Below are positions 4,312 to 62,564 of a stretch of DNA of 64,000 bases, in pieces. Origin of the DNA: Globomyces pollinis-pini (Eukaryota; Chytridiomycota; Chytridiomycetes; Rhizophydiales; Globomycetaceae); contig MU621159.1 of assembly GCA_025399215.1 (NCBI GenBank), positions 1 through 64,000 on the forward strand. The letters run 5' to 3'. The number at the start of each line of letters is the position of its first letter. The first letter of the stretch is position 1. The position numbers and the translations under genes were made by a program. Under the pieces are notes generated by a model, which was not told the DNA's origin, did not search any database, and saw only the letters and a list, made by a program, of their open reading frames with translations.

Positions 4312-6989
4312 CTAAAGTGGTGGGTTGGCATTTCGAACCAATTCAACAAATTGATCATGGAACCATTCTCCAGCTTGAGGAGCATTGTACAATGCATCAA
4401 ATCCATCTGGACCACCAGCTACACAAAAACCATCAACACGACTATTACCGCTTGAAGCACCATCTGATTCGCCTGGTGGTTTGGCCCATACATAAGCATC
4501 AACATTGGTAATTGGATTGGCTTGAGGACGGAATCCAATCCCAGCACCTTTGTTGTTACACCATGAACCCCAACGAGTTCTGATCCCTGCCACACCATTA
4601 CGACTGGTGTCGATGATAAATCTTGAAGGTAAACCGGCTTGTCTGAATCTCCAGGCCAAAATGCTGAGGAAGAGATTTTCATCTATTGCTGGATTATAAT
4701 CGTATGTCAGTCTTTCATTTCCTCCCTTGTCTTTGGCCATAAACATTGGTGCCTTTTGCTTGGCTGGTGGGACCCCATTACTAAAGACTGGACTGTAATT
4801 GGCAATGTTTGTAGCAAAACCTTGAATGCGAAGGTTTCCATTCATAGCCCTTGCCCAACCAAAAGTATCTTGAAGGATACGCACAATACTTTCTTGACCA
4901 TCTTCCCATCCAAGCCAACCTCCATGAGCAACATCGATGTACATGTAAACGTTAGGAATTGTGGTCAATTTAGAAAGTGCATATGCTACTCCTTCTTTAT
5001 ATCCAGGACCAGCAGCAGCACATCGAGGATTATCCATATTAGTGGCCAAGTTCGGTAGCGAGTCGGGTTCAATGATGAGAACGATTCGGACATGTGGATT
5101 GTTGTTGCGGTTTAATTCATCAACAAAACGATCAATATACTAGAATAATTAGATTCAAATAGATAAAGTACCTGACTTTTGTATGTATCTATTCCACCAA
5201 CTGCAATCTGACCGTTAGATGCCAATGCATGACAGTCACGTCCAGGGAGGTTGTAAACAATAAATTGAATAGTAACTGGGTTGGAGGCACTTGCTTGTCG
5301 TCCAGCATTTCGCATATGTTTACCAATCTTGCTTAAATTTTCTATCGTATCTACCCAGATAGCCGTAGGTTGATTCTTGACAACGTTTGCTTTTCCTGCA
5401 ATTGATCCGTCTCTTGCAATCGAACTATCTACCGATTGCGCAAAGTCAGGACTTACATAACCAGAAGCGCCTGCATATGGATTGTCAACTCTAACAACGT
5501 CCCTTCCAGTTACTAATTTGTTACATAGCAGACCAGACTGGACATTTCCATTGGGTTTACTGGCAGGATAATCAACAGTAAACTTTTTCATGTAACAATT
5601 GTTGTAGGCGAAACCAAACGCAGTACAACCGGGAGTGAATGCACATGCAAAAGCGCATTCATCTACACCAGCTGCACCAACCGATTTGAAATCACCGCCA
5701 GTAAAGTCACGGTTGTCAAAGTATACAACACCTTTCTTCACACATTCGTTTCTTCCTCCAAGAATTGCTGAATAGATATCTTTATTCTTCTCGCGACGAC
5801 TTGATGATTGAATTCCACCTTTGAAGTAGCAGACCTTCTGACTGGAAGACCAAGAGTAAGCATTACAACCTTCAACTTGTTGGCACATGGTTTGACAGTA
5901 GTTTCTATCGGTGGCAGGTTGGTTGCTTAAATCGCCTCCAACAAAGTCTTCAAAATCGTAGAAAGTCCAACCAAACATATCGACTTGAGATGGTGGAGGA
6001 GGTGGTGGAGGAGGAGGGGGTGTAGGTGGTTTTGGGGCAGGGGGATAGCACTTGATTGAGATCACAGTATCAATCATATCTTGGCTTGGAAAATCCATTG
6101 TGACAAATCCAGTTGCAGTAGGACAAGAAGTATGTTCCTTCATATAATCCAACGCTTTTGGATTAATATAAGCTGCCAAATTTCGTAGTCCCGCACCAGC
6201 AGCGTCAATCACAGCAGACGAAGCAATATCATAATAAAGCTTATCAGAATCTTTGCGGGCAGATTTATCCCAAATATCTTTGAAGGCTTGGACGGCTTTA
6301 GTTGCTTTAGAGAAAGACCAACCAGGTCGAGATTGGATGCATTCATCGAATCCAAAGCCATAGTCCAGGCCATAGTAATTGTTCCAAAAACTGACAATTT
6401 TTCCACGCATGTCACCCATAGTCAAGCTTTTACCACAATTTCCATGTTTTCTTTCATCTACATACCACAAACTCTTTTTGATGTAAGCATTGAATCGGTC
6501 TTGGAATTGACGAGTGCTAATTTTTTGGCCATCACCATCATGTTCTTTCTGGATTCTGACAATGAGAGTTTCCTTTGGGTGGTTTTCAATAAAGGAATGA
6601 ATTTGAGAGATCACATCATTCAGATTCAAATCAAGGTAGACTGCACCATGATACATGCAGATTGCGGTGTCAGAACCTTCACAAGATCCAGCACGTAAAT
6701 CAATGTAGCGGATACCTGCATTAAGTTGCGTTGCAATAGACCAACTTTGAGTTTTTACCTGACCAAAGGCTGTTTCGATACCCGAAGCTTTGTATGTACT
6801 GGCGTCATGAGTACCTGGGATCAACATTTCACTAAGTTTGACATGATTAGGCACGCTCTCCATCCAATTAGGGTTACTTCCTGGAACTTCATCTGGGATT
6901 CGTATTGGTGGTTCTGGAATTTCACCACCTGGCTCGCCTGGAATTCGAATGGCAAGTGCATGAAGAATGCACAAGTAGGACTTTAACAT
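4312..6989 (-). CDS. Secreted PI-PLC X / PAN / PAN / GH6 fusion
   Basis: About 881 residues in two exons (6989-5172 and 5139-4312) around a 32-nt intron at 5171-5140. After a short N-terminal hydrophobic stretch, residues about 43-300 form a bacterial-type PI-PLC X domain: IPGTHDAST and CMYHGAV hold the two catalytic histidines. A polyproline linker (about 318-333) leads to two PAN/Apple-like Cys-rich modules (about 335-410 and 415-493), a class that binds glycans or proteins. The rest is glycoside hydrolase family 6: YNLPGRDCHALASNG, the IIEPDSLPN signature with the usual catalytic Asp, AHGGWLGW and DTSRNG...RWGSWCN. GH6 enzymes cut beta-1,4-glucan from the non-reducing end or internally. 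PLC, both PANs and the GH6 start lie in one uninterrupted exon, so the fusion does not depend on gene modelling. The predicted product is a secreted wall-attacking enzyme. Confidence 0.9.
5140..5171 (-). other. 32-nt GT-AG intron in the PLC-PAN-GH6 gene
   Basis: The reading frame ends just after the SQ of GGIDTYKSQ. Removing a 32-nt segment that starts with GTACTT, contains CTAAT and ends with CTAG joins it in phase 0 to YIDRFVDELN and then the GH6 EPDS motif. It is typical of the tiny introns in this window. Confidence 0.85.
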
Positions 6990-7782
6990 TTTACTGAATA
7001 GTCTTATGGCAAAATTTCGTTATCATTAAATACCTTTTTCTGTGTAACTGTCCGTTTCTTGTTCAACTTGGTTCTCATCATTTGACTTGTCCCAAAATAA
7101 ATGAAACGTTTCATTTATAAACATGGCCTTTGAAAAAAGCGGTTAAATCCAACAAGAAGTTCCATTTTCCATAGAAGAGAAGTGATGTAAGCTTTTGAAT
7201 TATGTGATATGCAGATAGTAGACATGTCCGTAGATAGCCGTAGTATAGAATTCCAAATTGGACTGAAGTGGATCACGAAAAACAGCAACACCCATTTGTT
7301 CTAGCAACACCCACAAATATTTGGCCAAAATGAAGAAATGATCACAAACAAGAACACAAAACTAAAGCAATTAGTAACGTAGGCCACTTGGTCTCTTTTT
7401 ACGTCATTATATCTTAAGGGATCTTTGCAGTACTGCATTTAACAAATCCTGAAATACCTTTGTGTTCCGTTTCAGAAAAATTGTGATCGCTGTGTGGTTC
7501 CCTAGGTCACTCATTGAGCCCTCAGCATTTTGGGACATTTCACATTTCTAGGTCAAAATCTCCTTTTTAAGTTTTGCCGATTCGATTTTATCAGAGCTGC
7601 TAATATAATAGGTCAATATTACTAGCTCTTGTCTCAACGGTACGAAACAATTTGCATGATGTAAATATATTCAAATTTTACTTGTCATTCACGTTAGACA
7701 GCATTACTACTATTACTCAGCAGAAGTGTTTACAGTATTAAGTGGAACACGAAAAAATGATAGAATAATGCGACCTTGAAGT
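6990..7782. other. Intergenic, about 790 bp
   Basis: Lies between the start of the minus-strand PLC-PAN-GH6 gene and the end of the minus-strand helicase gene. A TATTTAA-like box (minus strand) near 7033 is about 43 bp upstream of the ATG at 6989. The rest holds no convincing reading frame, repeat or RNA gene. Confidence 0.4.
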
Positions 7783-48559: not shown

Positions 48560-49445
48560 TTAACTTTTTAATGGTTCCAATTTACGACCTTCATTTGAGT
48601 TTTCAAGTTCCGATTTGCCTTTCGTGTCTCGTTTTGACACTACTTTACTCTTCTGATCTACCTGTAGAAAACCTGTATCTGAAGTACAGTTTGGACACTT
48701 TTTGGCTATAATTGGTATCTCTAATAAGCAAAATGGACATGGTTTGCATTCAGGTTTTGACTCTTCAGTTTCGCCTTGATCATTCATAAAGACAGCTACA
48801 TAACCTACCAACGTTAGACTATTCTTGAGGAAACAAACCTTTTATGATGATATACAATACCAACGCGATAAATAAAAAGTTGATGATAGTTTGGAAAAAT
48901 GTTCCATAGTTAAATGTAATTGCACCAGCAGTTTCCGCTAAATTGAATTAAAGTCTTCTTAGATACCTAGACTAACTGTAGTATAGTCTCTCGAACTACA
49001 TGGATTTTCGTCTGGACATTTTAATACTGCAAAATTTCCACTCAACGATGTACCTATTATCAGTCCGATAATTGGTGTCAATAAATCATTAACGACAGAA
49101 TCTATTATACTTCCAAATGCACCACCTATTATTATTCCCACCTAATTGTTAGGTTTCTTAAATTGTATTTCATACTGCTAATTCTATTGTATTTCCACTT
49201 GCAATGAATTTTTGAAAGTCTTCAAATATATTGAAAGGTTTAGATTCCTCTTTTTTGCCTTCTTTCTCATCATTTTCAAGTATTGTACCCGCTTCGATAT
49301 CTTTATTGGGTAAAGTTTCAATTCCAACTTTGGATGGTTTATTCATTCGAAAACATGAGAACCATTTGTTGGCTGACTTTGGTTTTTTTTCTACTGTAGA
49401 CTTCTTTATCAAGTTTATCTCTTCAATTGATGGTTGTTTTTTCAT
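48560..49445 (-). CDS. mscL: MscL-type mechanosensitive channel, copy 1
   Basis: Four exons. A Lys-rich N-terminal extension of about 70 residues leads to the MscL domain: [17 protein letters not shown], then [20 protein letters not shown] (pore helix TM1), an extracellular loop with [27 protein letters not shown] (TM2) and a cytoplasmic zinc ribbon [18 protein letters not shown]. MscL opens under membrane tension to release solutes during hypo-osmotic shock. The three introns fall at the same positions as in copies 2-4: phase 0 after ELA, phase 1 before GAIT and phase 1 after TM2. The last donor is GTTTGT. Confidence 0.9.
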
Positions 49446-49544
49446 CCTTTAGTCTAAAAAAAGATTGGACGCGTTTTGATTGGTGATAAGAAAATTTAAA
49501 CTCATTATTTTCTTCATTTCATAGTGAATTTCTCTAAGTTAAAT

Positions 49545-50881
49545 TTATTTCAATTCTTTTAAGGGTTCTAAAGATGTCTTTTTCTTCAAAGGTATTAATG
49601 TTAAACCGTCCAAAAAATTCGGCTTTCGGATATCTGAGAGACTACTGGAGCTTGTTTGATTAGCCATTTCATTCGTAGATGCATCTTTGCTTATCTTTTC
49701 ATTGTTTTCAGCAGGAAGTTCAGTTTTTGTCGATATCATTCCAGGTTGGTTTGCAGATTCAGTGTAACTCATGTAAGTTTTAATTGGAGGGAGTTCTGCA
49801 TTTCTATTTTCGACTCTAGATGTCTCCACATTCTTTTTTACAATATTTTGATCTGCAAATGGATCTGGGTTTTCATTTGCCTTATTTTGATCACTTTCCG
49901 ATATATTCTCTTCAGATTTTCCGAAAACGAATACAAGACCATTACTATCATTCCGGGTAGGCTTATTCTCTTCCAATGATTTAGTTTCATTGCTGGAATC
50001 GGTGGGATTTTTAAGATTGGTGTTGCAATAAGGGCATACAATAGTTTTTGAGGCTATCCTTGATGTACAGTAATCACAAAAAAAACTTTCCTGTTCAATA
50101 TTTACTTCTTTCACTTCTTTCTTGAATACGGATGTATATGCTGGGAAAATGAGCAAACGAATAAACCTTACCACGAACAAGTACATACATGATTATTGCG
50201 ATAATTATAAAATTGAATAATGTATGAAAAAAGCTTCCATAGTTTAAAGTGATAGCTCCAGCATCATGTGCTATAGATTAGTGACCATAATTGAGTACCA
50301 TTACTCAAAGTAATATAATCACTTCTTAAACATTCAGTTCTATGACCATCGCTATCAGTAGGACACTTTAACAAAAAGAAAGAGTTGTCCAAACTTTCTC
50401 CTACGATCAAACTAAGTATTGGTGCAAAGATGTCAAAAACCAACGACGCAACAATCTCACTAAAGGCTCCTCCAATAATGACTCCAATCTATTCCATAAA
50501 CTAATAGAAATTTACTGTTAAATCCACAACATTCCCACCACCAATAAAATTGATAAAATCGTCCAAGTAACTTTTCGTGACTAATGCTGCATCCCTAGAT
50601 GCTTCTTGTGCAGCTTGAGCAGCACTTATTCTGTATCCATCCGCACTCCCATACTGCCCCTCCGCAATTTGTCTATAATCCTCGTATTCATTCGGATTAT
50701 GTTTCTCTTCTTCAAATTGTTCATCAACATGATCTTTTGAAACACCATCAACCTCCAAAAACTGCTTTGGAAATTTATCATAGGAAGTGGAGTCGATAAT
50801 AAGGTTTCTATCCCCATATTCTACAAAATCATTCAACTCGGCGTATTTTTCTTCGGTGTAGTCATACTCTCCTCTAAACAT
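49545..50881 (-). CDS. mscL: MscL-type mechanosensitive channel, copy 2
   Basis: Four exons from the ATG at 50881. An acidic Tyr-rich N-terminal extension of about 100 residues ends in an amphipathic helix (AAQAAQEASRDAALV), then YLDDFINFIGGGNVVDLT, GVIIGGAFSEIVASLV, a loop with LLKCPTDSDG...EC, GAITLNYGSFFHTL and TM2. The long C-terminal exon (50186-49545) holds the zinc ribbon CDYCTSRIASKTIVCPYC followed by about 160 polar residues ending near PLKKKTSLEPLKELK. Introns match copies 1, 3 and 4. Only 99 bp separate it from copy 1. Confidence 0.9.
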
Positions 50882-50966
50882 AAAATTTTTACGTGTTTTT
50901 AAATGAGAAAATGTACAGATTAATAATATATTGGTATCACATAATTAAAAATATCTTCAACATCCC

Positions 50967-52492
50967 TCATAAGTGAAAGGATCGAGACCGTTTCCATTCC
51001 TTCAACTCTGCCAAAATATTTTTATCCAGCTTCGTATATGTTCTAAAGTCACTATTGCAAAATGAACAGACCACAGATTTTTCTGGAATCATCATTGTAC
51101 AATATTGACACTGTTTACAGTCTTGCGTATCTTCTGATGGGGTATCTTTGTAAAACACAGAAGTATAGCCTATATTATTAGCTTTAAACAAATACCTCGA
51201 ACAAGGATATATAAAATAATACTTATTACCAATAAATTACATATTTTTTCTACAAAACTTCCATAATTTAATGTGATTGCACCTTGTTCATTCGCTGATG
51301 TTAGTTTCAACGAACTACTCACCATTCTGATACGTATTAAAATCCGTAGAAAGGCATGGACTTAACTTCCCATCTGAATCTGTTGGACATTTTAAAAGCC
51401 AATAAGAACCATAAAGAGATTGATTACCAAGTAAGGCAAGAATTGGTGTGAGGATATCAAATACCAATGAATCAACTATTTGACTAAATGATCCACCCAA
51501 AATAACCGCAGCCTATAGTGTTAAGTTAATGTTGAATTTACTAGCAGATTCATGGTGTTTCCATTGCTGAGAAACTGTACGAAATCATCCAAAAGGGCTT
51601 TGGTTTGTCTAGCAGCAATAATAGCATCTTCCTGTGTATCTCGAAGTTTTTCTAGTTGTTTCTCTTGGTTCAAATGGTATTCGTCAGTGAATATATCAGA
51701 GACATTATCTGGTTGGTTTTTTTGTCGATATTGATTGAAAGATTGTAAAGTTTCAATTCTAGGGTTTTGTTCTTTTAACAGGTAATTGTCTTCCATGTTG
51801 GTGTCTTGATTGGGTATCTCGGTGATCAAAAATGGAGAGACATTATGTCCTTCTAAATAATTCATCATATCCTCGTTTTCTTTTATATCTGGTTCTGTAA
51901 AATGGCATTTGTTAATAGCAATTATGTTTGTGAATGGTTGATGAATCGTTTTCCTTTGAATGTCCATAATATTGGTTTCTGTTTGCGGTTGTATAACTGA
52001 CAGAACCTCTGTTTTTTGTTCATCGTTATCAATTTTGTCATCTTGAAATACAGTGATCTTTTCAGGAGGGATATATTTGGAAATTTGGTCAGTGTCTTTG
52101 GTTAATGCAACTGATTTTGGAATAGGTTCAGGCAGTTTCAACAACGGCGAGTTCAATTTCGCAGTTATCTTCAAGGATTGTGATGTTGTATCAATAGATG
52201 TAGGAGTGATTTTTGTCACGATAGCGAATGGAGGTGGTGTAAAGTTAACATTAGGAGGAATTCTAAATACTTCTATATTAGATGTTGAAAGATTGCTTTC
52301 GGGTCTTTTTAGTGGTTCAAGTCGCTTTGGGAATTGTCTTTGATTGGAAATAGGTGGAGATACAACACCAACAGGGTTTTCAACTGAATTATCAGACAGA
52401 AGTATATGAGGTATTGATGATTTTTGCTTAGATTGATTATTTCTACCCTGGTTTGTTGTATTATCATTGGTTATGTTAGTTTTCTCATCCAT
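50967..52492 (-). CDS. mscL: MscL-type mechanosensitive channel, copy 3 (long N-terminus)
   Basis: The longest extension: about 300 polar residues, Pro/Thr/Asn/Gln-rich and probably disordered, ending in a helix (DAIIAARQTKALLDDFVQFL). The TM1 region reads NGNTMNLLA then AVILGGSFSQIVDSLVFDIL, a more diverged pore than the other copies (NLLA for DLAV). The loop has LLKCPTDSDGKLSPC. GAITLNYGSFVEKICNLL and TM2 follow, then the zinc ribbon CQYCTMMIPEKSVVCSFC and a short tail. Three introns (29, 28 and 24 nt) lie at the shared positions. It is 85 bp from copy 2. Confidence 0.88.
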
Positions 52493-52767
52493 AATTTGTG
52501 TGTTACTTGAAGAATACGCGCTTTCAATACCAAATAAGAAAAGGGTTGAATAACGAAAAATAGATCATTTTTTGTTTTGTATGGTTTACAGAGCAGACAG
52601 TTAGATCCAGAGAGATACAAGATGTAGTATAATCTAAAGTACTGCTTACCTCAGTGCGCGCAGTTATTCTTCCAATCTACATTTAAATGTCGTAAAATCA
52701 ATAAGAATCAAAATTAAAATGAACTTTCGACAATTAAAATGCATTTTTGACACTGTTGATTTTATTC

Positions 52768-53862
52768 TTATTTAAGGTCTGAAAACATACTCGGTCTACG
52801 ACTGGCACCATGATCTTGTTTACCACTAAGAATCGAAAGGTTACCACTTTGCATCAGGTTGCCTAGCAAAGCAGCTTGTAATCGCAAATCTTTCTTTTTC
52901 TGTAAATTGTCATCGTCATCTGAATCATCATCGGTTTCCCTTTGCTGCTTGATTCTAGTAAATCTTTCTGCTGCAGATTCTTCTTCTAAATATGATTTAC
53001 AATGATGGCATCTTTTAGCTTCTACTAAAATATCCTTTGTACAAAATGGACAATCTCGTTTCTCTGGTTCAATCTCTTTGGGAGCCTCTTTGCCTTGAAA
53101 TAAAAGCATATATCCTAAAATCAGATCTTAAAACTTACCTCTAACTACAGCATACAACATTAATGCTATGATAAAAAAGTTAATAAGCGTTTGCAGAAAG
53201 TAGCCATAATTTAATGTGATTGCCCCACTATCTCTTGCTACATAGTTAAGTATATATGATCTAACCGATGGCTATGGTGTTAAAATCAGACCAAAAACAA
53301 TCCACTCCAATAGTTCCTCGTACGGTAGTTGAGTTGGGTAAATAAGGACAAGCCAAAACGAAAAATGACGATGATAATGTAGAACCAACTATTACTCCCA
53401 CAATGGGTGAGAATAAATCGCGTACAGCAGAACTGACGATGGAACTAAAACCACCACCAAGAATAATACCAATCTATTGAATTAAAAACAGAAATAAAAA
53501 GATACTGCCAAATCCACCGAATTTCCTTCTGAAATAAATTTCTTAAAATCATCCCAAACTGTTTTTCCAGCAATCATAGCTGCTTCAGCTGTTTCTAAAG
53601 CAGCTTCTTTTGAACTGAGTGTATACGGCGGTCCATCAAATTTTACCTGATCTTCTGAATATTTAACGAATTGTTCAAAAGTTTGCAATTGTTGATACGT
53701 TTCTTCAATATAACTTCTAAATTCTTCAAACTCTGCAGGTTTTTCAGTTACATAATCTTGCAATTCTTCAAATGAATTCCATCTCTTTACTGGAAATTCA
53801 GAAAAGTTTTGGAATTCTTTCAAGTCATCTTTGAAGTCTGTAAATTCCGATTTAGATTCCAT
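52768..53862 (-). CDS. mscL: MscL-type mechanosensitive channel, copy 4
   Basis: The start is the ATG at 53862. An N-terminal extension of about 100 residues with acidic/aromatic helices (FEEFRSYIEETYQQLQTFEQ) ends AALETAEAAMIAGKTVWDDF, followed by KKFISEGNSVDLA, GIILGGGFSSIVSSAV, a loop with ACPYLPN...DC, GAITLNYGYFLQTLINFF, TM2, zinc ribbon CPFCTKDILVEAKRCHHC and a charged tail. Intron positions match copies 1-3. Confidence 0.9.
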
Positions 53863-53964
53863 CAACAAAAATCGCGTTAAAGTTACTACTCAACTCATGT
53901 CATAACATGAAATAAAATTATTGATTGACTACAATCAAAAGATTAGTATACAAAAAACTGTTTA

Positions 53965-54594
53965 TTATGCTATTTCAATTTCATCAGATTCTGCAATCAA
54001 ATCAGAAGTACAAAATCCACATTTGACAGCTTTTATAGGAACATCTTTGCAACAAAAGTCACACTCTCGTACCTTTGGTGGTTTTTCACGACGAAAAGTA
54101 GCAGCATACACTTTAACCATAAAGTAAACAATTGCAGAAGTAATCAGAAAATTAATGCAGATCTGTAGAAAGGATCCATAATTCCATGTAACTGCACCTC
54201 TGTTTTTTGCTATTTCAATAGTTGCAAAATCACCTTGCTGACAGTCCTTTCCTAGAACACCTCGGGTTTTGTTATCAGCCAGTTTTGGACAAGCAATAAT
54301 AAGCATGGTATTTTGAAGTGAAGAACCGACTGCCAAACTGATGACAGGAGTGATTATATCACTAACTCCAGAGTTTACAATTGATGTAAATGCAGCACCC
54401 ATAACGATACCCACAGCCAAGTCAACAACATTTCCTCTGTTTAAGAATTCCTTGAAGTCTTCCAATACTGACCCAACAACTTTTACAGACTTTCCGACCC
54501 CTTTTCCCACATTTTTACCCACTTTACCAATTCCATTTCCCACTGATTGAAAAGCATTTCTGTTATCCTGTTCGATTTCGTCGTCCCTGGCCAT
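53965..54594 (-). CDS. mscL: MscL-type mechanosensitive channel, copy 5 (intronless)
   Basis: 209 residues in one exon, the most MscL-like of the five. A Gly-repeated N-terminal helix (GNGIGKVGKNVGKGVGKSVK) precedes LEDFKEFLNRGNVVDLAVG and IVMGAAFTSIVNSGVSDIIT, close to bacterial MscL in the gate region. The loop has ACPKLADN...KDC. WNYGSFLQICINFLITSAIV is TM2. The C-terminus is the zinc ribbon CDFCCKDVPIKAVKCGFC. None of the three introns of copies 1-4 is present. It is the first gene in transcription order. Confidence 0.93.
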   Translation of the reverse strand: MARDDEIEQDNRNAFQSVGNGIGKVGKNVGKGVGKSVKVVGSVLEDFKEFLNRGNVVDLAVGIVMGAAFTSIVNSGVSDIITPVISLAVGSSLQNTMLIIACPKLADNKTRGVLGKDCQQGDFATIEIAKNRGAVTWNYGSFLQICINFLITSAIVYFMVKVYAATFRREKPPKVRECDFCCKDVPIKAVKCGFCTSDLIAESDEIEIA

Positions 54595-54912: not shown

Positions 54913-57900
54913 CTAAACTTTAATCGGTGCCTTCTTCACTTGCCATTTACCATTTGCAATTATTTTGGCAAACTGTCGTACAGGACCCAAAATCACAACT
55001 TTTTCCCAGAATAAAAGTGCCAATAAGTTGAAGAATGCAAACACCAAAATAACCCACCGGAATTGAACTGGGATAACATTGTGTCCAATATTATTGAAAT
55101 ATTCCGATGGGGTTATGAAGTTAACTACATATCCTAGATTAATAAGACTCTCTTCCGTTCCACAGTTAATGTGGAATAAACAAGTCAAGGCGTTAGGGTC
55201 GGACAAGACTAATCCTGATAATAAAGCACATCCTGTAGCATATGCCAATAAAAATATTCTATTTTTCCAGAATCCTTGACGGTATTTGTTACCCAAGTTG
55301 AATACACAAGAAGAATGCAAGATTTGGAACATTGTTAAAACTCCAAGAATTGCCCCTTCGTAGTTATCTGCAAGTTCCCACCATTTTCGTAAATCAGCTT
55401 GGGAACCATCAAATTCATGACAGCGATAGAACGACTGGTTATATAGCAGTGCAACCATTGCTAATATGAAACAAGAATTGATGAATATCTGACCCAACAC
55501 AGATAGTACAGTTTCAAACCCTACAATAAGAAATGCCACTCGATTTACCTATTAATCTTGCAGTTGGACGAAATGGAATCAATTTCAATGCTGGTTTTGC
55601 CATTGTCAATGCCCAACTAAGAGGGACAGTACACCCATCGATAAATATCCACATTGCTTGACTCATTTGTACTTTATAGTAGTACATTACCAACCCATTC
55701 ATGGCCAACGTTTCACCATACATGATAAGAACCCTTAGATATTAGCTAAGTAAATGAATTACTTGTAAGATGCAATTGACACATCTAATGAGCAGCGAGC
55801 TTCACGCACAAGTTCCACACAAGAGTTAATCGACAAGTTACAGGACGAAAAGTGCGATACTACTGATGTTCCTGATCCAGATAGAGCAATACCAGCATGC
55901 GCTGCTTTCAGAGCACCAGCATCATTTCCTCCATCACCACACATGGCAGTAATGTGTTGAGACATGTGTAATCTTACACAATGCACTTTATCAAGCGGGC
56001 TCATTCGGGCAAAAATTCGAATATCACCCAAAAATTGTGGAATCCAACAGTGCTCCATCAATGTTTTGAATGCCTGTCCAGCGATGACTAACTCTACTTG
56101 ACGCCCACCACTTCTAGAGTTATAAACTGCTTTTTCAACATTAGATTGGGTCCATTTCGATTTGTCGGCCACATTGTGCCATACTACTTCCTAGCAACAT
56201 TAGTAAATAAGAGATTGTACGTTATCAATGTATTCGGCCATTAAAATAATCTGTTCGTTGGAAAGAAGTCCACAAGCTTTTCCAATGAAGGTAGCGGTGT
56301 TGGCATGATCTCCAGTAATCATCACTGTTCTGCAACCTCCATTTCGAAGGTGTGTTAATGCATCGGCAGTATCATGTTTCAATTCATTACGGAAAAGTAA
56401 TAAACCAATAATTTTAGCTCCTCTTTCCAAATCATCTCTTGAAGAAACTTCCACTTTTTCGGCAGTAAAATCTTGAGGCAGTTGCTTGCAAGCAATAGCT
56501 AAAACATAATGTCCTTCCAATGCATGTTGCTTCGCAACTTCAACAAAATCAGATGGGATATCATCTTTATCCACCAATCCAGAAATTTTTTCAAAGGAAC
56601 CTTTTAAAAAGACGGATGTCATTTTCGATTCAGTATCATGAGCTACAACAGACATGTAAGCATGGGCATGAACAAACTCGAAACGTTTCCAAATCTTAAT
56701 TACTGATTCTGATAAATGTGGATAGATTGAGGTAAAGCTGTTTGGATCCACATTTGCTCCGGTAGCATTGAACATTTCAATATCAACAAAATTTCCAACA
56801 GATTTACCCTTTACTAATGAAATGGAATGACAAGTTTGCATTGCCAGTTTCATTTGAGGAGTGAATAGGAAAAAGTTATCTTTCAAAGGAATAAATTCTT
56901 TCTTGCTAACGTCAATTTCATGAGCACCCATGAAATCAAGCCCTTCTTTAGTTAATGTACCAGTTTTATCAAAACAGAATACTTTGACTTTACCCGCCAA
57001 TGTGATTCTATTTAAATCTACACACATGATTCCTCGATGTCGCAAGCGTTCGGCAGAGACTGATTGTCCAATTACCAAAACTGCAGGGATAAGTGGTGAT
57101 AATACTTGTGAGATTCCAAACATTCCGTAAAACCATGCATCATAACCTTCAGTTCCCAACATCAATACAGAGATGATAAGCATAACAATTCCCCAGAAAA
57201 TCAATATCGGAACAACGATTTTCAAATGTTCAGTAAAAACAAAGACAAATGGTACTGGATAGAGAATATCTCGAACTAGTTTACCCTTTTCAGTTGAGCC
57301 ACCTGTTTCCAAAACCAATGCTTTGATTCTATCACCATCTACACTATGTTGTGTTTCCAATACAGTGGTACCTGCAAACAGACAATTTAATTTTCCAGTC
57401 GATTCTTTGATAAATGGTTTGTTATCTTCCTTGAGTGCAAATTTAGTAACAGGCAATGCTTCCCCGGTAAGTGAAGATTCATCCACAACCACATCACCAC
57501 TTAAAATAACGCAATCAACCGATAATGGTGATCCCTCTGCCACTATTTCAATCACATCACCAACAGCAATATTTCGTGATTCGATCTCAATCCATTTACT
57601 GTCTCGGTAAACCTTTGCTGTACCGATAAAGGTTGCCATTTCAAGAACACGTTTTTGAGCTTTTGCAGATACAATGACTTTGGTAATACCAGAACCGATA
57701 ATGATACAAGTCAATACCAAACCCATGTAATAGTAGGCATAAAAATACCAAATAGTTAAAGTCATTAATTGATAAAGGTAAAATATTCCTGAAAATCTAT
57801 GAATAGTTAGTGTTTCTGAAGGATACGTACTCTTTCACAATGCCTTCTAAAAATGAATTCATTTTGAATAAAATTTCATTGTTTCCACTCATTTCAATAC

Positions 57901-59568: not shown

Positions 59569-62564
59569 ATGTCTGAAGCGAACGAAGCTGCACGACGACC
59601 AACCCTTTTTGCACCCGCGAATGTGAGTAGAGTCCCAACTGTTAGTCGACCAAATTTATTTAGAAGAGGTACAATGTCCTAGACTGATTTTTAGCTACTG
59701 CTACTGGTGCTCCAAAGCAGAATTCCTTAAATAGACGTAAAACTACCAATCAAAAGGTTAATATGTTTGAAAAACCTCAAGAGAAACCTTCACTTTGGGT
59801 GAACTTCTCTTGGTTCATCACTTGTTGCTGCCCTTCAGCGCTGTTGAACTCTTGTGGGGTTCACACTAATTCTCAGCAAGCTTGGAGAGAAAAGGTAGCA
59901 TTGTGCTTCATTGCTTTTCTGTTGATGGCAATCACGGTGTTCATCCTAGTGTTTTTTTCAAATGTTCTCTGCCCAGCTTCATTAACGGATAATGTTATTC
60001 CAATCAATGCCTTTGGAGGAGTTGTTATTTTTGGAACAATGTATAATTCAATCACAATGACTCCCCCATTTAATGCGCTCTTTGAACAGACAGATGCTGC
60101 ATTTGGAGGAATTGATGTTTCTCAAGTCTTTTCTCAACCAAACGTTGGTGCCTGTACAAACGAAAAGATAAAGAATTTCGCCTTTGCAAGCTTTACTTCA
60201 CCTTGTGAACCGAACTGTTTAAGCTTAGACGATCTCAAAACACAAAGCAATTTGAAGGTGTATGATAAAATTACTGTATGTCTGTTAGAAATTTAAGAAT
60301 TAGGGTAAAAACAACAAGGAAGTGAAAGTAAATCCCCAACCTGCATATGAATGGAAAGATGTGCTGCAAAGAAGATTGGTAGCGTACCAAAACACTGGTA
60401 TCTTAAAAGAAAAATTAACCAGTAGTACTAAACTTCAATCCGTATTTTGTTCAAAACCCTGATCCAATTCCAAACGATCCAGTCGACCAGTTTATGAGAC
60501 AAGCTCAATCGATCAATGATGCAACGAGATTACTTGAATTATCCACCAAATTATCAAACCCAATGAAAGAATGTTTAGTGAAGAAATACTATGCTGGTGT
60601 TTTATCTGTGCTTCCAACTACCTGTATCTTGTCGCGATTATTGACTTGGACAATTGCAGGTGTCATTTTATCCATTTTACTATTCCGATTTGCTTTCTCA
60701 CTCATTTTTGCTTGGTTTGTGTCTAGACGTTTAGCAAAGGACCCATCGTCGGAGACTATGATTAATAACTATGATAATGTCCCTGCTTCTAAACCATTGT
60801 TGTCGCAGTTAACTCCAAAGGATAGAAAAAATGTCACTCCAAGTGGGAATTTTTTTACTGGTGGTATTGATAAAGGAGTTGCTACTCTGTTCAAGAAACC
60901 AGGTGCTAAATCGCCTGCTCCTCATCCAGCCGACCTTTTTGCAGTTCTGTTAGTCACTTGTTATTCAGAAGGGAAGGAAGGTATTAAAGCGACCTTAGAT
61001 TCACTTGCTGCAACCAATTATGATGATAGAAAAAAGCTGTTGTTCGTAGTTGCTGATGGACTAGTTCAAGGAAGTGGAAATGCTCAATCTACTCCTGATA
61101 TATTAATTTCCATGATGGATCATGACCCAAGATTTGGAATGCAACCATTACCTCAATCATATGTTGCGGTCGGAACAGGCTCCAAGCAACACAATATGGC
61201 AAAAGTATACTGTGGATGCTATACATATGAGGGAAGAGCGGTACCGATGGTATTGATTGTCAAGTGTGGAACTCCAGATGAACAATCAGGTAGTAAACCT
61301 GGAAATAGAGGGAAGCGAGATTCGCAGTTAATTCTAATGAATTTCTTTTCACGAGTGACATTGAATGATAGAATGACACCACTTGATTTTGATTTATTCC
61401 GTAAAATCCATCACATCAGTGGTGTTACGCCAGACTTTTACGAATTAGTGTTGATGGTGGATGCAGATACAATGGTAGAACCATCTTCAGTGCGATATCT
61501 AATCAATGCTGTTCAAAATGATCAATCCATCATGGGATTATGTGGTGAAACAAGAATCGAAAATAAGAAAGCATCATGGGTTACAGCAATCCAAGTTTTT
61601 GAATACTTTATCTCCCATCAAATGGGTAAAGCTTTCGAATCCGTATTTGGTGGAGTCACATGTTTACCAGGATGTTTCTCAATGTGGAGAATCAAATCAG
61701 TAACACGGGACGGTACTACATTACCAATCATTGCCAATCCAGATATTCTTGAACAATATTCCACAAACGATGTGTATACGCTACACCAAAAGAATTTATT
61801 GCTGTTGGGTGAAGATCGGTTCTTGACTACCATCATGTTGAAACAATTCCCAAATCGTAAGACGGTATTTATCCCACAAGCGGTTTGTAAAACTGTTGTG
61901 CCTGATGATTTCAAAACTTTACTTTCGCAACGTCGTCGATGGATCAATTCTACTATTCATAATTTGATGGAATTGGTTATGGTTGATACATTATGTGGAA
62001 CATTTTGTTTCTCTATGCAAGTAAGTATTTTTTTTTAGCAATTTATACAAATAGTTTGTTGTATTAATGGATTTATTGTCTACTGCTGTGATGCCAGCTG
62101 GATTAGTGGTGACGTATTATTTAGTGTTTTCGGCAATATTTCAAGTTCAATATTCGACGGACAATATTACTGCGTTAATTATGACCATAGCTATGGCAGT
62201 TGTGATTTTCCTCCCAGCATTTGTAGTATTATTAACTGGTCGTCGCATTTCGTATGTATTGTGGATGTTAATTTACCTTCTTGCATTACCTGTCTGGCAA
62301 ATCATTCTTCCAATTTATGCGTTCTGGAATTTTGATGATTTCTCATGGGGAGAAACTCGTAAAGTAGAGGGCCATGTTGAATCCAAGTCTGGACATGATG
62401 AAGGAGATGGTAGTTTTATAGCTTCTCGTGTTGCATTTAAACGATGGGATCAATATGAGCGTGAATGGAGGCGGACTATGATTCCTGAAGATTTACGACG
62501 CAACAACAGTTTTGTACGTGAAGATGGTCGTGAAAGCACTGTATTCACTGACACATCCAATTAA
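59569..62564 (+). CDS. CHS: Chitin synthase, division 2 (class IV-like)
   Basis: Five exons with introns at 59669-59694, 60276-60303, 60398-60422 and 62021-62054; 960 residues. N-terminus: RRPTLFAPA, then CCCPSALL and [16 protein letters not shown] (typical class IV/Chs3 start with membrane helices), [10 protein letters not shown] and GGIDVSQVF (a cytochrome-b5-like remnant), [18 protein letters not shown]. Catalytic GT2 domain: [63 protein letters not shown] and [12 protein letters not shown] (the QRRRW motif). Polymerises GlcNAc from UDP-GlcNAc while extruding chitin. C-terminal helices and a short cytoplasmic tail follow. No myosin motor. Confidence 0.93.

Follow-up and report, generated by a model that had tools for sequence, protein, structure and literature searches.

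The first 64,000 nucleotides of contig MU621159.1 from the chytrid fungus Globomyces pollinis-pini (Chytridiomycota, Rhizophydiales), hereafter the window, contain five tandem genes encoding mechanosensitive channels of the MscL family. These genes, named A to E in the order of transcription, are all open and lie head to tail on the minus strand at positions 48560 to 54594. MscL channels open a wide pore as membrane tension approaches lysis, and are known as homo-oligomers forming a large, non-selective, tension-gated pore. A previous sequence-only reading of this DNA had proposed five such same-strand genes, and the gene models built here recover its outer coordinates exactly and its spacing of 85 to 275 bp, with intergenic gaps of 102, 275, 85, and 99 bp in transcription order. 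Its assignment to MscL was borne out by a Pfam profile search, where the five proteins score 108.5 (A), 92 (B), 70.5 (C), 89.8 (D), and 103.2 bits (E) against the MscL profile (PF01741; cut-off of 27.4), much higher than chance would give, and where no family other than MscL was found in them at an E-value of 0.001. We therefore read the array as five paralogous MscL-family channels, originated by duplication of a fungal MscL and maintained as osmotic release valves, and assign this reading a probability of about 0.8.

Gene A (53965 to 54594) is a single exon of 209 codons with no introns, whereas the other four genes share three introns each, a feature that goes beyond the earlier account. 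Gene B (52768 to 53862; 336 amino acids) consists of exons 53862-53506, 53473-53266, 53237-53139, and 53114-52768, separated by introns of 32, 28, and 24 bp. Gene C (50967 to 52492; 480 amino acids) consists of exons 52492-51542, 51512-51323, 51294-51196, and 51169-50967, with introns of 29, 28, and 26 bp. Gene D (49545 to 50881; 416 amino acids) is formed by exons 50881-50516, 50488-50299, 50270-50172, and 50140-49545, with introns of 27, 28, and 31 bp, and gene E (48560 to 49445; 262 amino acids) by exons 49445-49176, 49141-48967, 48937-48839, and 48804-48560, with introns of 34, 29, and 34 bp. The exon-intron structures were assigned manually from the DNA alone, by choosing the GT..AG sites that recover the MscL alignment or reading frame. 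The introns occupy identical positions in the protein alignment, with phases 0, 1, and 1: the first one inside the pore helix, the second one before the G-A-I-T-x-N-Y-G motif, and the last one after the second helix. A branch-like T(A/G)A(C/T) is present in ten of the twelve. In the neighboring P-type ATPase gene (54913 to 57834), the breaks between open frames also appear by eye to be similarly short introns, one of them clear at 28 bp, and such very short introns (24-34 bp in B to E) may be typical of the Globomyces genome.

The model of gene C can be compared with a deposited protein of G. pollinis-pini, P0121 (BC833DRAFT_587628, 482 amino acids), which carries the pore and the ribbon in a single chain. 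This joining of the pore to the ribbon, on which the sequence-only reading depended, is also found in the gene models. Both versions of gene C agree except at the junction of intron 1, where P0121 reads V-N-S and the hand model reads A. The hand model was kept because intron 1 of B, D, and E lies at the homologous site, and the pore helix of gene C is to be taken as uncertain at this point. Gene A is represented among the deposited proteins by the fragment P0001, and no deposited protein for B, D, or E was seen among the matches listed in the protein searches; either the short introns defeat gene prediction for these genes, or the searches may have missed their deposited forms.

Regarding the channel domain, the pore-helix motif considered here, taken from the earlier reading and from general knowledge of the family, consists of G-N-x-x-(D/E)-L-A-V-G, a loop, N-Y-G, and a second membrane helix. 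It is found across the alignment, slightly variant in B, D, and E, and C departs from it. At the gate, A displays D-L-A-V-G, B and E are one conservative step away, D is two steps away, and C has N-L-L-A-A. The gate positions varying among B to E are sites that affect gating in Escherichia coli MscL. The array proteins share the solved MscL fold by profile, sequence, and model comparison, their channel domain being alike to those of E. coli and Mycobacterium tuberculosis (the latter PDB 2oar and 6ctd). The identity among them is 36-53%, and B to E mostly carry long tails, with individual N- and C-terminal extensions, including an N-terminal extension of around 300 residues in C and a long tail beyond the ribbon in D.

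All five proteins have the C-x2-C-x10-C-x2-C ribbon after the second helix (C178-C195 in A, C243-C260 in B), as first noticed. From its four cysteines, this ribbon would bind zinc. Its matches to named zinc-ribbon families are, however, all below cut-off: the tail pieces of B, C, and D gave DZR (18 and 21.4 bits) and UPF0547 (13.5 and 12.4 bits), and no such Pfam family passed it in any tail piece, A having no match and E none of the zinc-ribbon kind. The ribbon is present in 64 of the 68 rows of named chytrid and Mortierella-group fungi (array included), in 112 of the 120 proteins listed from the gene A search, and in 69 of the 112 proteins from two further searches, one of them with gene B as the query. 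Nor is it a special fungal feature, since 56 of 78 readable bacterial or archaeal MscL loci among the closest relatives carry the same tail. A eukaryotic or fungal invention was rejected on this count, and the ribbon is most simply explained as inherited. The ribbon-tailed bacterial proteins, such as those of Nitrospirae (P0100), Anaerolineales (P0117), and Lachnospiraceae (L032), combine the same two-helix channel domain with this tail, but their loop is mostly devoid of cysteines and they have no long tails, whereas B to E have introns. The MscLs of E. coli and M. tuberculosis, on the other hand, have a C-terminal helical bundle, no zinc ribbon, and a single copy.

The outer loop offers another mark of the fungal proteins, as each of A to E has two cysteines in it. 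In an alignment of 68 fungal rows (the five array proteins plus 63 named database proteins) and 167 other rows, at least two loop cysteines were counted in 60 of the fungal rows and none in the remaining 8. The rows other than named fungi, some of them possibly chytrid, have at least two in 25 cases, one in 3, and none in 139. A loop disulphide may exist in the fungal MscL line.

MscL seems confined to the array in this genome. The Globomyces assembly (18,547,825 bases, 459 contigs) gave eight exon-level matches to the MscL profile and nine to the protein P0002, all of them within the array, and neither search found a second MscL site elsewhere; matching was done exon by exon, with the best candidates scored (9 of 9 in each case), and the counts are lower bounds. 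P0002 (194 amino acids, on a 7,333-base contig) is itself labelled Globomyces pollinis-pini. Its best match in the assembly is gene A, at 60% identity, and no copy of it was found in the assembly searched, so that it may be a sixth gene whose contig is missing or a protein of another assembly. One MscS-domain match of the assembly lies outside the array, on contig C51, with 26.8 bits (cut-off of 20.2). Fungal MscS-like channels (Msy1/Msy2, MscA/MscB) are also of the mechanosensitive type; they belong to a structurally distinct family, and Msy1/Msy2 have been linked to hypo-osmotic survival (PMC9367656).

The search with the gene A protein took in 869 candidates and gave 681 matches at an E-value of 0.001 or lower; the listing shows 120 of these. 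After its own fragment, the best named ones belong to Globomyces, Boothiomyces, Terramyces, Spizellomyces, and other chytrids, with dozens of named chytrid proteins. This kinship bears on whether the array could be bacterial contamination or an assembly artefact, an idea suggested by the mainly bacterial distribution of MscL and by the intronless gene A. We consider it exceedingly improbable and rejected it: the nearest relatives are chytrid proteins, B to E contain introns, gene C has a deposited counterpart under the name G. pollinis-pini, and the same contig carries the P-type ATPase and a chitin synthase. Carriage by a virus was also rejected, as none of the 12 loci encoding MscL on viral contigs is close (31-39% identity; ribbon in 3 of the 12). 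The MscL encoded on two large putative viral contigs from IMG/VR, L027 and L028 (146 and 381 kb), lacks the ribbon and has an extended, repetitive N-terminal stretch.

The chytrid proteins (Boothiomyces, Terramyces, Spizellomyces, Batrachochytrium, and others) are 45-62% identical to gene A, bear the ribbon, and usually have the loop cysteines. Among the 120 matches listed, at least eight assemblies have at least two MscL copies, judging by shared locus-tag prefixes: at least three in Boothiomyces, and at least two in each of Borealophlyctis, Rhizophlyctis, Geranomyces, Dinochytrium, Batrachochytrium dendrobatidis, Physocladia, and Siphonaria, the pair of the latter being labelled UNVERIFIED_CONTAM. 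At least two pairs have adjacent or near-adjacent tags (HDV06_006616/006618 and HDU67_006527/006528), on contigs equal in size within each pair. Several MscL copies, partly in tandem, are therefore habitual in chytrids, the present row of five being the largest cluster among these matches. No other five-gene array and no close relative of B to E was seen among the matches listed from this and the two further protein searches, although this was weakly tested: the gene B search gave 39 proteins, hardly any of them fungal, and the other one scored only the 7,999 candidates sharing most words. The recurrence of copies and adjacent pairs would suit a plain lineage-specific growth in copy number, providing more valve for dilute water through overlapping functions and with no specialized roles. 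We find this possible but doubtful, considering that the proteins have diverged to 36-53% identity, that their tails differ greatly, and that A lacks the introns of B to E.

The descent of the copies was approached with three trees of the quick kind (130, 94, and 95 rows), with Shimodaira-Hasegawa-like approximate likelihood ratio test (SH-aLRT) supports, no bootstrap, and P0001 and P0121 excluded from all. The first tree was taken from 235 rows, with unnamed rows from P0100 up thinned to one in six. The second one omits seven long-branched or near-duplicate rows, the Eisenbacteria row, and most unnamed rows. The third one contains 58 fungal and 37 bacterial or archaeal rows, with the ribbon loci limited to the first 34, and omits eleven long, partial, or near-duplicate rows, the unnamed proteins, and the non-ribbon loci. 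Long-branch rows are absent from the later trees, including Tieghemiomyces, which stood among bacterial rows in the 130-row tree. B to E form a single branch in all three (96, 96, and 82.6, respectively), with C and D paired at 96-97 in the first two, where the residue composition of gene C was flagged as odd. In the free 95-row tree, B to E fall outside the remaining fungi (85.9), and the branch parting the fungal from the bacterial or archaeal rows has a value of 93, not starred. Holding A to E together was not rejected by the approximately unbiased (AU) test (p-AU of 0.58 and 0.65), nor was holding them with Boothiomyces and Terramyces (p-AU of 0.71). Since these constrained trees also score above the short free search, the data permit a local origin of the array without demonstrating it. 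The 130-row tree additionally placed B to E in a seven-row set (support of 90) with the long-tailed proteins of Powellomyces and Phlyctochytrium and with Gaertneriomyces. This kinship was not adopted, as the N-terminal extensions look unalike on inspection and the grouping may be an effect of long branches.

Gene A lacks all three introns common to B to E, as expected if it arose by retroposition from an intron-bearing gene instead of keeping the ancestral intronless form. Such an origin seems unlikely to us, given that A is the nearest to the MscLs of other chytrids (up to 65% identity, B reaching at most 49%), a closeness not accounted for by retroposition of a B-E gene; this argument covers a retrocopy of that kind and not the loss of introns from an A-type gene. 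According to the reading of duplicated and maintained channels, the starting point would be a fungal MscL akin to the ribbon-tailed bacterial ones, which would have undergone tandem duplication. Gene A would have kept close to the form usual in chytrids, and B, C, D, and E would all derive from one copy with introns. All five are old copies whose proteins have been preserved by purifying selection: over 141-150 codons of channel and ribbon, silent differences are near saturation (pS of 0.66-0.82, with dS not computable for 5 of the 10 pairs), and dN lies between 0.41 and 0.69.

Each protein would have the MscL topology, with cytosolic N- and C-termini, two membrane helices, and an outer or lumenal loop, and membrane tension would open its wide pore to release solutes upon hypo-osmotic shock. 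The ribbon would form a small zinc-bound cytosolic domain at the place of the helical bundle of E. coli MscL. We infer both the tension gating of A to E and their membrane of residence, as well as differences among the copies in threshold, stage, or partners. Different thresholds or partners seem likely because the gate residues vary, those of C the most, and the tails are very different; different stages or mixed channels would also be plausible. The swimming spores of chytrid fungi have no wall. Tentatively, the array could be a graded or mixed set of valves, with A as the general channel and B to E specialized by altered gates and terminal extensions. Solute release from wall-less zoospores, sporangia, and internal membranes would then occur at differing tensions or by way of mixed pentamers. 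A stricter version, in which A would be the core subunit of mixed pentamers and B to E tuning subunits that set the threshold or link partners through their long tails, draws on the clustering of five maintained, diverged copies, their individual extensions, and the altered pore helix of C. We regard it as improbable, since MscL is known as a homo-oligomer and a stage-separated expression of the copies is equally possible. The sequence-only reading was right about the zoosporic host and the five diverged copies, and its subfunctionalized osmotic release channels are partly supported as an interpretation: shared introns, old divergence, and purifying selection fit a lasting specialization.

Two other genes of the window are worth recording. 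The chitin synthase open frame lies at 60419-62038 (PF03142, 604 bits), and an open frame at 5112-7019 unites glycoside hydrolase family 6, PAN, and PI-PLC-X profiles, possibly as a multidomain secreted enzyme.

G. pollinis-pini was isolated from pine pollen (PMC9381765). No literature on MscL in chytrids, on the ribbon, or on such an array was found by titles and abstract openings, nor any pairing MscL with the ribbon or the channel name with early-diverging fungi, in a coverage that mostly excludes subscription journals. The claim that the cluster was undescribed holds to this extent, even though MscL is not exceptional in chytrids and copies and pairs recur among the matches listed. What stands out is the size and divergence of the array, together with the B-E branch, its shared introns, and its individual tails; it is a notable expansion inside a known family and not a new kind of system. 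A 2014 review counts fungi among the carriers of MscL homologues and describes the gene as single-copy in fungal and bacterial organisms (PMC4204436), a statement that, for fungi, the array and the multi-copy pattern of other chytrids contradict. The array provides natural eukaryotic MscL variants for studying gate residues and cytosolic tails against tension thresholds, and lets one ask whether MscL forms mixed channels, in fungi with wall-less swimming spores.
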